Virus record (IMG/VR): IMGVR_UViG_3300024518_001358
Coordinates: 1-26,206 of that record
DNA length: 26,206 nt
Direction: 5' to 3' (one strand)
From: a virus
Part shown: piece by piece, positions 4,002 through 22,987 of the stretch
Layout: each line of letters begins with the position of its first letter
Numbering within the stretch: the first letter of the stretch is position 1
Position numbers and translations under genes: made by a program
The notes under the pieces: generated by a model
Told to the model about the DNA's origin: nothing
Seen by the model: the letters and a program-made list of their open reading frames with translations, nothing else
Database searches by the model: none

Positions 4002-4294
4002 TGAAACTTAATGTTCATCATAAATTAATTGAATATTTAAAAGTACATGGTTGGCTTGATCATTGGACATCTGTTCACATGGCGGCAGGGGCTTTTATAT
4101 GTAAAGCATCTTTATGGTGTGGAGCAAACAGTTATGAAGCGGTAATGACTGTACTTATAATAGGGTTACTGTGGGAGATTGCTGAATATTATATTGAAAA
4201 TTGGGAACCTTATGGTTCAAAACAAAAATGGATAAATAATACACTATCTGATTTAATCGTAGAGGTTGGATTAGCGATATGGATGGTTATATAG
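4001..4294 (+). CDS. Small membrane protein with conserved WEIxEYY motif
   Basis: A 97-residue protein with three likely membrane segments: about residues 25-40 (HMAAGAFICKASLWCG), 46-60 (VMTVLIIGLLWEIAE) and 83-97. The pattern His...Gly in the first segment, WEIxEYY at the end of the second, then NxxxDLIxExG, recalls small VanZ/DUF2238-like membrane proteins common in phages. The start follows GGAG (3991-3994) and overlaps the previous stop (TAATG). Function unknown; it sits in a cluster of membrane proteins ahead of the lysin, so a part in lysis timing is possible. Confidence 0.78.
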   Translation: MKLNVHHKLIEYLKVHGWLDHWTSVHMAAGAFICKASLWCGANSYEAVMTVLIIGLLWEIAEYYIENWEPYGSKQKWINNTLSDLIVEVGLAIWMVI

Positions 4295-17447: not shown

Positions 17448-17590
17448 TGCATCAATTTTTGGACAATGTAAAATAAAAACCCCCTCTAGAATCTTGTTCA
17501 AAGCTCTAAAAGGGGTTTTTTGGTATAACTGTCCATTAAACAACTATCGCTTGTTATTAGGGCGATTAGGTGTCCTATTTAAGGTTAGGC
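17448..17590. other. Gap between leftward genes holding a terminator and short inverted repeats
   Basis: The 143-base gap contains the terminator at 17475-17521 and, near 17567-17589, interleaved inverted repeats TAGG/CCTA/TAGG that could form alternative small hairpins on the leftward transcript. An open frame covers part of it as an upstream extension of the 17244 gene, which I reject. No confident promoter seen, though a new leftward start would be expected after the terminator. Confidence 0.45.
17475..17521. terminator. Bidirectional intrinsic terminator
   Basis: AAAAACCCC (17475-17483) pairs with GGGGTTTTT (17512-17520), and inside it TAGA (17487-17490) pairs with TCTA (17505-17508) around a 14-base loop. 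Each strand ends the stem in a run of five or more T, so it can stop transcription both ways. It would end the leftward transcript after the 17591 gene, separating it from the last four leftward genes. Confidence 0.75.
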
Positions 17591-18988: not shown

Positions 18989-19446
18989 TAGAATGGTACC
19001 TCACTTATTAATTCCACAACTCTAGCAACTGGATAATATACCTCATCATTTTTTTCATTTGTAAAGCTTTTATTCCATGCCATAATCTTTACTTTTTTAC
19101 CATAAAGATCATCACTCTTAAGGTAGGGTAATTCAATACGACCATCTTTTTCTTTGGTCATATTCATCAACTGCATAAACTTAGCAATCCCCCAATTCTT
19201 ATTCGGCTTATAGTCATAACCATCAACCTGTTTATATCTAAAGATTCCATTATCGGTTACTTCTGTATCCTTATAATCTCCAGACGTTACCCTATAAACA
19301 GGTTTAAATACATCAGCTATAAATGATCCACATTTTATATCGGTAACGGTAGTCATATCTATTATTATTGCTCTATAGTTTCCAGACGGTAGTTTTTCTT
19401 TACCCGAGTTACCAATAAGGTCAAAGTAGGCTGTAGAGTCAGACAA
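18988..19446 (-). CDS. DUF669-like, possible single-stranded DNA-binding protein
   Basis: 152 residues from a TTG start placed right after the previous TAA, with AAAGGA about eight bases upstream. The sequence runs LPSGNYRAIIIDM, FIADVFKPVYRVTSGDYKDTE, FRYKQVDGYDYKPNKNWGI, then VKIMAWNKSFTNEKNDEVYY. A start such as PxGxYxAxI, followed by F.I..G.YK...., resembles the phage DUF669 family, thought to include single-strand DNA-binding OB-fold proteins. Position near the Cas4-like nuclease is consistent with a recombination or replication cluster. Moderate confidence. Confidence 0.7.
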   Translation of the reverse strand: MSDSTAYFDLIGNSGKEKLPSGNYRAIIIDMTTVTDIKCGSFIADVFKPVYRVTSGDYKDTEVTDNGIFRYKQVDGYDYKPNKNWGIAKFMQLMNMTKEKDGRIELPYLKSDDLYGKKVKIMAWNKSFTNEKNDEVYYPVARVVELISEVPF

Positions 19447-20125: not shown

Positions 20126-20554
20126 TTACTCCTTGTTATAGTTACTTTTTATTTCACGTATTTTATCTACAGATGCAGTAAGATTATCTTGTTTTATCTT
20201 ACCGTCATCTAACGCATCCAAGACCTTATTTAAGTCTGAATCTTTTAAACCGCGAGCTTCTAAATGTATTACGGCACGCGTATGCTCTTCGGCGGTTATC
20301 TTTTTACCAGAATCACCAATTATTATAGCTCCACATTCTTCCTCAGACATCAACCGCACTGATATGCTTTCATCTTTTTCTTCATCGCCATTCATTACAT
20401 AATCAACAAACACTTCTATTATCCCTTTCTCTGAGGGTTTTAGACTTATCTTTTCGTTATGTTTTAGCTTATGTTTGTATAACTCTAGCGCAAAAAAGTG
20501 TCTTACTTTTCCGCGATTTATGTTATCCCAATCGGGTTCACTATTTTGATTCAT
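20126..20554 (-). CDS. Conserved-looking phage protein beside the Cas4-like nuclease
   Basis: 142 residues, overlapping the nuclease gene by four bases (ATGA). The N-terminus has PDWDNINRGKVRHFFALELY, a pattern (W-D-x-I-x-x-G-K-x-R-H) I recall from phage proteins next to recombination genes. A beta-containing middle follows and a helical C-terminus with Asp/Glu/Lys. No catalytic motif. It may act with the nuclease or bind DNA; this is context only. Confidence 0.75.
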   Translation of the reverse strand: MNQNSEPDWDNINRGKVRHFFALELYKHKLKHNEKISLKPSEKGIIEVFVDYVMNGDEEKDESISVRLMSEEECGAIIIGDSGKKITAEEHTRAVIHLEARGLKDSDLNKVLDALDDGKIKQDNLTASVDKIREIKSNYNKE

Positions 20555-21291
20555 AGTTCAGTTCCTTTTTTATTTTTCTCTCTACCACTTATTCCACCAC
20601 CGCAAGGTTCAAAGAATGAACAATACTTTGCATTGCATTCCCATTCCTCTACTGGTGATGTTCCGAAATCAACAGGTGGTGCTCCTTCTTCTATATAATC
20701 AGCTAACATATTCCAATATTGTTCAGCACTGTCTATATATTCTAAAGGTACTTCCACCTCTTTCATTCGAGAATTATTTTTATTATAAAATAGTAATGCC
20801 ATACTATCTACATCTTGACCCATTTCTCTGAAATACAATCCATATGTTCCCATTTGATAACAGTAATTCTCCTTTGGTTTACCGCTACCATACTTACCAA
20901 ACATACTCTTCCATGACCAGTCATTGCATGTTTTTATATCATACAATCTATTATCATCGATCATCATAAGGTCAATCCAACTACGAACATTTAATCTGGG
21001 AATCTCTATTTCCTTTTCAACATAAATAGCGGTACCATTTTTGCGGGCGAATTCCTGACAGGCGTATTGTATGTCCTCATGTACGAGGTCACCAAGACGA
21101 AATAAACGCATAGTACCGCTATCTTTTTCAGTGGGTTCTAACTTTTCTACACTTTGAAAGTAGTGTTTCCTCATGCATAATCCCGCACCAGATGCATGAT
21201 ACCAACTTTCCTTACCTTCATATCTTTTACCGAAATGCTTATCGCGTAAGTCTAATATGTAATTATCGTATAAGTCTGCTACATCAATCAT
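20551..21291 (-). CDS. Cas4/RecB-like iron-sulphur PD-(D/E)XK exonuclease
   Basis: 246 residues. Conserved elements in order: Cys39 in GAGLCMRKHYF, His71 in GDLVHEDIQY, Asp107 in RSWIDLMMI, Asp118-Ile-Lys120 in LYDIKTC, Gln146 in YQMGTYGLYF, and Cys219, Cys224 and Cys230 (CNAKYCSFFEPC). One early plus three late Cys around a PD-(D/E)XK core is the layout of Cas4-type and AddB-like nucleases holding a 4Fe-4S cluster. Expected role: processing DNA ends for phage recombination or degrading host DNA. Phage Cas4-like genes are usual outside CRISPR loci, and no CRISPR array is present here. The start overlaps the upstream gene by eight bases. Confidence 0.88.
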   Translation of the reverse strand: MIDVADLYDNYILDLRDKHFGKRYEGKESWYHASGAGLCMRKHYFQSVEKLEPTEKDSGTMRLFRLGDLVHEDIQYACQEFARKNGTAIYVEKEIEIPRLNVRSWIDLMMIDDNRLYDIKTCNDWSWKSMFGKYGSGKPKENYCYQMGTYGLYFREMGQDVDSMALLFYNKNNSRMKEVEVPLEYIDSAEQYWNMLADYIEEGAPPVDFGTSPVEEWECNAKYCSFFEPCGGGISGREKNKKGTEL

Positions 21292-22225: not shown

Positions 22226-22265
22226 CCTCAAGTTTATGCGGGAGCATCCATATTATGACTTAAGG
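22226..22265 (-). promoter_or_regulatory. Possible ribosome-site-masking hairpin
   Basis: On the leftward RNA CCUUAAG (22259-22265) can pair with CUUGAGG (22226-22232), which contains the ribosome site of the 22020 gene; the loop is 26 bases. The 5' arm lies inside a 28-codon frame whose stop is at 22234-22236, so a translating ribosome would open the pairing. Confidence 0.35.
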
Positions 22266-22320
22266 AGGTACTTCTATTACCGTTGTGGGTATAGAAAGTG
22301 TATAGTAGACACTCCCGCAT
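22234..22320 (-). CDS. 28-residue ORF, possible leader peptide
   Basis: An ATG three bases after the stop of the zinc-ribbon gene 22323-22487 opens a 28-codon frame (MRECLLYTFYTHNGNRSTSL...), ending 16 bases before the ATG of the 22020 gene. The ribosome site is weak. It has no recognisable domain. It fits the gap well and might act as a leader controlling the next gene, but a chance frame of this length is quite possible. Confidence 0.35.
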   Translation of the reverse strand: MRECLLYTFYTHNGNRSTSLSHNMDAPA

Positions 22321-22322
22321 GT

Positions 22323-22487
22323 TTATAACTCTTGGGGCATGAGTTCATACCCATCACATTTTTCAGAGTTCTCACACATTAATCCATATTCAACAATATC
22401 ATCTTTGCCATACTCTTGCCACACTAATTGCTCTTCACAATTAGGGCATTGTTTTTCTGATACTTCTCCACCAATTACATAATTCAT
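22323..22487 (-). CDS. 54-residue zinc-ribbon protein
   Basis: ATG overlapping the preceding stop by four bases (ATGA). The sequence carries CPNC (14-17) and C38 with C44 (CENSEKC), four ligands spaced like a zinc ribbon, in an acidic protein with VWQEYGKDDIVEYG between. Such tiny zinc-binding proteins are common in phage early regions and may bind nucleic acid or host enzymes. No specific target can be named. Confidence 0.65.
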   Translation of the reverse strand: MNYVIGGEVSEKQCPNCEEQLVWQEYGKDDIVEYGLMCENSEKCDGYELMPQEL

Positions 22488-22642
22488 TTCTTCTTCTCCT
22501 GTACTCTGAATTTATCACCAACAGTTATTACTGTTACCCAAACCTCGTCATGGTAGTAGCATAAGTACATACCAAGTGGATATATAGTAATAAGACTAGC
22601 CATTAACATAAGTATAAAAATAATAAAACCATTATCATCCAT
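22484..22642 (-). CDS. Small single-pass membrane protein
   Basis: I start at the ATG at 22642 (52 residues, MDDNGFIIFIL), four bases after AGGAGAG; the frame is open for 11 more codons without a ribosome site. A membrane helix covers about residues 5-28 (GFIIFILMLMASLITIYPLG), followed by a short polar domain (WVTVITVGDKFRVQEKKK). Function unknown. Confidence 0.65.
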   Translation of the reverse strand: MDDNGFIIFILMLMASLITIYPLGMYLCYYHDEVWVTVITVGDKFRVQEKKK

Positions 22643-22675
22643 ATTATCTCTCCTCGTTTTTTTTATATAAAACAA

Positions 22676-22987
22676 TCATATGAGCCTCGGGTTTTGCGTT
22701 AGGGTGGAGTCTAGAATCTCGCCCAAATCTCGGTTCTCTCCGAGAGGAGGCTCATATGCATAGGGAATGTGCGCGGTGTTTCTGCCAGTTCCGCACCAAG
22801 ATGGACTCTGCATTGACATGGACTGCATCTCCATTCCCCAAAATTTAAAAGGACTCAGCATTGGTGTTAATTCACTATCTACTATAAGGATAAAAATGAA
22901 TAAAACGAAAACATAGTAGATCGACCAAGTCCCTTTATTAATTCTTTTCATACTATTACAACGCTGATTCATTATAAATGTTCCCAT
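22676..22987 (-). CDS. Hypothetical membrane protein ending inside a structured element
   Basis: The ATG at 22987 follows the previous stop directly (TAAATG); MKRINK at 22951 is another start. Neither has a good ribosome site. The product has one membrane helix (about 22-36, SIYYVFVLFIFILIV), then a Met/Ser-rich part (WGMEMQSMSMQSPSWCG) and a tail encoded within the inverted-repeat element at 22677-22758. The second half is clearly more GC-rich than the flanking genes. Either the gene runs into an RNA element or the open frame there is accidental. Confidence 0.5.
   Translation of the reverse strand: MGTFIMNQRCNSMKRINKGTWSIYYVFVLFIFILIVDSELTPMLSPFKFWGMEMQSMSMQSPSWCGTGRNTAHIPYAYEPPLGENRDLGEILDSTLTQNPRLI
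22677..22758. repeat. Perfect 12-bp inverted repeat enclosing two inner stem-loops
   Basis: CATATGAGCCTC (22677-22688) and GAGGCTCATATG (22747-22758) are exact reverse complements 58 bases apart. On the leftward RNA the inside can form CTCGG/CCGAG with a 6-base loop, and a GGGCGAG/CTC..CCC arm with an internal bulge. The whole would be a branched three-arm structure, GC-rich within AT-rich DNA. A run TTGTTTTAT follows on the leftward strand. It was tested as a tRNA and does not fit. Confidence 0.6.

Follow-up and report, generated by a model that had tools for sequence, protein, structure and literature searches.

A conserved branched RNA element at a viral gene junction, a candidate for translational coupling

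Introduction

The operons in which masked ribosome sites couple neighboring genes form, to our knowledge, a limited set. Coupling of translation through RNA unfolding is an established mechanism (PMC12548453, PMC6728339), and PMC6728339 describes a frequent basis for it, in which the initiation region of the downstream gene pairs with the upstream reading frame. The systems treated there combine a downstream ribosome-binding site paired with the upstream frame and an ATGA overlap of stop and start (PMC6728339). In the MS2 coat-lysis pair a structure-masked phage start is likewise opened by upstream translation, with a spacing of −50 nt and a coat protein as the upstream gene (PMC12548453).

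Here, we analyze an IMG/VR virus record of 26,206 bases (the window) and describe within it a branched structure, element 1, a genuine and conserved RNA element that Rfam does not contain. We consider it probable that element 1 is a cis-acting translational-coupling element controlling a downstream small membrane-protein gene. The locus has the pairing and the stop-start overlap of the systems described in PMC6728339, and differs from them in having a conserved branched fold of 82 nt as the pairing partner and an upstream frame that seemingly stays open without amino-acid constraint. It likewise has a structure-masked start, as in MS2, and departs from that pair in spacing and in the nature of the upstream gene. 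The mechanism is established; the RNA fold is undescribed in Rfam and in the literature searched.

Results

A preliminary description of the window had singled out a GC-rich branched element with a perfect 12-bp closing repeat as unlikely to arise by chance, and simulations and shuffles agree in bearing this out; the strand, which that description left unstated, can now be added. The two arms, CATATGAGCCTC (22677–22688) and GAGGCTCATATG (22747–22758), are complementary at 12/12 positions across a 58-nt spacer. Forty simulations of the window under a first-order Markov model produced no inverted repeat that was 12 bp or longer, had six or more G+C and was similarly spaced (mean 0.0); in 200 simulations, repeats of that length and any composition averaged 0.295 per simulated window. 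Compared with dinucleotide shuffles, the fold reached z = −3.25 on the plus strand and −4.18 on the minus strand, with 0/200 shuffles equally stable in each case, and the element's 83 nt by themselves gave −5.26 on the minus strand. Folding of either strand predicts the two inner stems, and element 1 was assigned to the minus strand because its flanking genes and its relatives place it there. Its parts are:

22677–22758, minus strand: element 1, branched, with the 12-bp closing stem P1 (fold and homolog alignment)
22747–22758, minus strand: 5' arm of P1, CATATGAGCCTC on this strand (inverted repeat; P1 pair probability 1.0 in all five homologs)
22728–22745, minus strand: inner hairpin SL1, UCUCGG AGAGAA CCGAGA (predicted fold)
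22702–22724, minus strand: inner hairpin SL2, GGGCGAG ... CUCCACCC (predicted fold)
22710–22715, minus strand: palindromic hexamer UCUAGA in the SL2 loop (sequence alignment)
22677–22688, minus strand: 3' arm of P1, with a Shine-Dalgarno-like GAGG (22685–22688), an AUG (22677–22679) and an overlapping UGA (22676–22678)

Protein searches around element 1 yielded 24 related IMG/VR records beyond the window, and 5 of these 25 records, the window included, carry the element. The other carriers are 3300030109_004096 (L002), 3300009104_000128 (L003), 3300025264_000107 (L030) and 3300009104_000137 (L034). Place and strand are kept in all five, and the copies align without gaps over 83 columns; large insertions and deletions distinguish the stretches that neighbor them. 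Neither pattern searches nor two further protein searches returned additional IMG/VR carriers. Used together as a pattern, the two 12-base arms had no match in IMG/VR, a search that possibly left out the window's own record and in which the relatives differ at the outermost base. Cultured phages and plasmids gave only chance matches of 24–25 nt (in two and one records, respectively). Among bacterial and archaeal genomes a 27-letter pattern gave no match, and a relaxed one gave 14 stretches, of which our model R1 matched 0/14 at E ≤ 10.

Rfam 15 returned no match for the whole window at the gathering score and none for 22500–22900 at E ≤ 5, and in the L030 and L034 stretches it gave weak hits elsewhere only, none over element 1. 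ARAGORN reported no tRNA or tmRNA genes in the window, and none in 7/7 loci scanned. We found nothing comparable to the fold in Rfam or in the literature searched. Across the homologs P1 is predicted throughout, and SL1 has a pair probability of about 1 in four of the five (0.28 in L034). SL2 reaches 0.65–0.82 in three homologs, 0.08–0.32 in L030 and 0.01 in L034; in these last two it is unfavored, the consensus fold lying 1.0 and 2.9 kcal/mol above the minimum, respectively. No pseudoknot joining the SL2 loop to the A-rich 3' strand was apparent on inspection by eye.

Variation within element 1 follows its stems, with 4 of 48 paired columns variable versus 16 of 35 unpaired ones (Fisher p = 1.6e-4). 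Standard pairs occupy 98.3% of 120 pair cells, and 22–55% once the partners are slid. Three of the four changed pairs are still standard, and the outermost SL1 pair breaks in L030 and L034. Compensatory changes, which the preliminary description had proposed to seek in relatives and whose absence it had counted against a structured element, did not appear: P1, SL1 and SL2 contain no two-sided changes in the five homologs because the stems hardly vary, and the RNAalifold covariation term is merely −0.08. Judged from the alignment, stem conservation is mostly at the level of sequence, and a protein- or DNA-binding site would give the same pattern.

Conservation at the codon level of the overlapping frame, the other outcome that would have spoken against the element, is not what we see. 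Variable columns of element 1 fall on the three codon positions as 7/6/7 over 83 columns (7/5/7 over 26 whole codons), versus 19/7/32 and 18/9/36 in the two downstream genes and 61/56/109 in the upstream gene (four sequences). Summed over pairs, synonymous and nonsynonymous codon differences number 19:55 in element 1, and 118:114 and 128:147 in the downstream genes; the synonymous share differs between element 1 and these genes with p = 2.5e-4, from pairwise counts that are not independent. Third positions vary in 7/26 codons of element 1 versus 68/100 in the downstream genes (p = 2.4e-4), and the codon-position shares compared directly do not differ significantly (p = 0.14). Because the changes spread evenly over codon positions, the overlapping frame does not appear to be conserved as protein.

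The doubtful open frame that had been noted to overlap the structure runs through the whole of element 1:

22676–22987, minus strand: upstream open frame, whose UGA overlaps the AUG in the 3' arm of P1 (frame kept, amino acids not)

It is open in all five carriers (103, 69, 101, 70 and 170 codons) and begins in each at the preceding gene's stop or close to it, and the two other forward frames contain 5–20 stops each. The part that precedes the element stays open under shuffling at frequencies of 0.0067 in the window, 0.041 in L002, 0.001 in L003, 0.065 in L030 and 0.0003 in L034, values that are not independent as the five frames share homologous parts. In the parts just upstream of the element, changes are distributed over codon positions as 6/7/8 (window, L002 and L003) and 7/7/5 (L030 versus L034), with no excess at third positions. 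The middle parts of the frame differ from lineage to lineage, and a hydrophobic stretch in its predicted product is found in three of the five carriers and missing in L030 and L034. Our reading of these sequences is that the frame is kept and its peptide is not.

At its downstream end the frame meets the next gene. The minus-strand sequence of P1's 3' arm, GAGGCUCAUAUG, includes an AUG at which, in L002, L003, L030 and L034, the next gene begins; this small membrane-protein gene encodes 46–60 residues with a hydrophobic start. The Shine-Dalgarno-like GAGG (GGGG in L034) lies five bases 5' of this AUG, and the UGA of the upstream frame overlaps it as AUGA in all five carriers. For 102 Shine-Dalgarno starts in the window's minus-strand block and the four relatives, GGGG being accepted as a motif in order to count L034, we averaged the unpaired probability over the bases from −10 through the AUG. 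The four starts embedded in the arm are the least accessible of all (0.058, 0.080, 0.105 and 0.109), the next lowest being 0.197 and the median 0.55. The ranking depends on the interval: from −16 to +5, which takes in the unpaired AAAACCC, the same starts (among 69 in the four relatives) score 0.336–0.387, low yet not lowest. It also largely restates the fold, because P1 alone explains the low accessibility.

The window departs from this arrangement through 52 extra bases after the arm (about 22625–22676) that are absent from L002 and L003 and provide the downstream gene with a new Shine-Dalgarno and start:

22644–22679, minus strand: 11-codon frame found only in the window, MIVLYKKNEER followed by UAA, which runs from the arm's AUG into the 52-nt insertion
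22484–22642, minus strand: downstream small membrane-protein gene with its own GAGGAG (22650–22655) and AUG (sequence)

The gene starts at 22642, about 34–35 nt past the upstream stop, at a start with an accessibility of 0.34. Because the insertion gives the gene its own ribosome site, coupling has probably been loosened in the window. That element 1 is intact there despite this site is a reason for caution.

Two further structures flank element 1 in the same operon:

22846–22942, minus strand: element 0, a three-way junction just upstream, with closing stem GGGACUUGG/CUGAGUCCU (fold and alignment)
22236–22320, minus strand: element 2, a stem-closed junction two genes downstream (two-sided stem changes, invariant ACCUCCUU)

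Element 0 recurs at 4013–4112 in L030 and 1442–1538 in L034, its closing stem in the latter being GGGGCUC/GAGCCCC. An interior unlike that of the other three carriers is common to L030 and L034, which fold with z = −3.73 and −6.67. The closing stem is kept, and the interior is entirely different from one lineage to the other, resembling the exchange of a module. Element 2 recurs in L002 (7070–7158), L003 (7148–7237), L030 (4493–4565) and L034 (1917–1993). Two pairs of its stem have changed on both sides, 43/43 cells are paired, and its covariation score was equalled by 11 of 500 shuffles. The anti-Shine-Dalgarno ACCUCCUU in element 2 is identical in all five copies and may pair with the next gene's Shine-Dalgarno. 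Elements 0 and 2 support the view that the gene junctions of this operon are structured.

We recorded several other features along the way. In more distant phages, junction elements of similar plan occur immediately 5' of a Shine-Dalgarno and AUG (L011, 1925–1990; L013, 1940–2009; L015, 1968–2033; L017, 1752–1823); they consist of GGGAGUGAG ... a hairpin ending CUCUGCUAC, CCUCCUUG ... CUCACUCCC, and none matches Rfam. L034 carries a tRNA-like 3' half, GGCGGGTTCGAATCCCCCTCTCGAC, at about 1405–1440 and a matching 5' part, GTCGGGAG, some 165 nt upstream (about 1270) within the open frame; neither ARAGORN nor Rfam calls a tRNA from these halves. The strongest fold in our scan of the window (z = −7.0) is a minus-strand hairpin at 17475–17520, AAAAACCCC...GGGGUUUUU, which looks like a bidirectional terminator. 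A second perfect 12-bp inverted repeat, AACCTGTTTATA, lies at 19225–19304 of the window with 56 nt between its arms and is shared with L030 (7421–7500), a diverged relative. The minus strand of the window also encodes, at 20551–21291, a Cas4-like PD-(D/E)XK nuclease that is 98% identical in three relatives.

Discussion

The coupling reading of element 1 builds on the computed fold and the conservation of its stems, on the lack of codon-level conservation, and on a frame open in all five carriers that overlaps the next start with its stop, a start masked in all four relatives. P1 pairs the end part of the upstream frame with both the Shine-Dalgarno and the AUG of the gene that follows, and this pairing would keep new ribosomes from starting at the arm's AUG. 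A ribosome translating the upstream frame would pass through the entire element, open P1 in transit and end at the UGA that overlaps the AUG, upon which initiation or re-initiation of the next gene would follow. Under this model the upstream frame need only stay open, and its peptide would therefore be free to change. The arrangement agrees with described coupling systems in two respects: the start region is paired with the upstream frame in L002, L003, L030 and L034 (in the window the masked AUG opens 11 codons), and stop and start overlap in every carrier. Of the identities offered by the preliminary description, a small structured RNA or a regulated mRNA end, what stands is a conserved structured mRNA element, and its place is now specified as the junction of two reading frames. 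The recombination or packaging site that it also offered gained no support from these sequences.

The phi29 prohead RNA is a branched phage RNA closed by its ends, as is element 1. Element 1 might act in trans as a small RNA, pRNA-like or regulatory, that is excised or transcribed here and closed by P1. We regard this as unlikely. Sequence conservation does peak within the limits of P1 and fall off upstream, and the palindromic loop suggests multimers, but the same genes neighbor the element in all five carriers, P1 holds the next gene's Shine-Dalgarno and AUG in four of them, promoter-like sites around it are not in excess (10 versus 11.6 expected), and the sole terminator-like site is on the opposite strand. 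Unlike the prohead RNA, element 1 has no Rfam match, gives no sign of a separate RNA and sits within an open frame. We therefore rejected the idea that a small RNA of its own is made here from a sigma-70 promoter or ended by a terminator, such sites showing no excess over shuffles. A ligand- or temperature-sensing riboswitch masking the same start is a poorer candidate still: the conserved unpaired AGAGAA loop, the AAAC before the 3' arm and the masked start codon would suit one, yet no Rfam family appears at E ≤ 5. SL2 has some resemblance to preQ1-I, a candidate that we rejected since the likeness does not persist in L030 and L034, whose loop letters change, and Rfam gives nothing.

An equally slim chance attaches to a real small protein with a conserved C-terminal peptide, YEPLLGENRDVGEILDSTLTQNPRLI, over which the RNA fold would be incidental. 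That the frame is open in all five carriers, starts beside the upstream gene's stop and encodes a hydrophobic stretch in three agrees with a protein; the evenly spread and mostly nonsynonymous changes, unlike those of the flanking genes, together with the lineage-specific middle parts and the lack of the hydrophobic stretch in L030 and L034, do not. Most improbable, to our minds, is an element acting at the DNA level as a recombination, packaging or protein-binding site. High sequence identity, a perfect inverted repeat and the insertions and deletions beside its borders in relatives would be expected of such a site, but its ties to the reading frame and the start codon are specific to one strand, and the variation tracks the RNA stems. 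Two other ideas were rejected on sequence grounds: ribosomal bypassing, as the arms share ATATGA but the matching codons fall in different frames, and a mobile element, as model R1 finds one copy of element 1 per record.

The loop of SL2 adds a feature that may bear on how a coupling element is tuned. Its hexamer reads UCUAGA in three homologs, UCCGGA in L030 and GUCGAC in L034. In a five-way alignment of about 3 kb with 2387 ungapped hexamer windows, it is the sole one of the 2158 variable windows that is palindromic in every sequence, a pattern spotted post hoc that comprises three variants and includes two deviating homologs in which SL2 is poorly predicted; four more windows are palindromic in all five, but invariant. 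Since adjacent bases cannot pair within one strand, the switching of one palindrome for another points to pairing between two copies, and the SL2 palindromes hint at kissing-loop dimers. For the loop self-duplexes the energies come to −5.6, −9.1 and −7.5 kcal/mol, and 5.4, 0.8 and 2.1% of random loops, respectively, are at least as stable. In HIV-1, according to PMC5874298, palindromes with more than one A-U pair performed poorly; self-pairing of UCUAGA would make four. The symmetric kissing loops of OLE and GOLLD described in PMC12286853 are alike in that the palindrome switches between homologs, which there supports homo-oligomers. They belong to large RNAs with cryo-EM structures (PMC12286853), whereas element 1 has 82 nt and three loop variants. 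One could imagine a self-sensing switch in which mRNA copies dimerize through the SL2 loop, more so as their concentration rises, and so tighten or loosen the masking of the membrane-protein gene's start codon, the upstream frame serving as a ribosome-driven reset, though we give this rather little credence.

If the palindromic loop mediates dimers, the signal could be the concentration of the messenger itself. Annotators would otherwise call the upstream frame a hypothetical protein, and this frame-only reading frame and the palindromic loop are features that specialists might find worth testing. Taken with the sister elements, a conserved branched RNA combined with an open frame free of visible peptide constraint suggests that small phage operons can be organized around such junctions.
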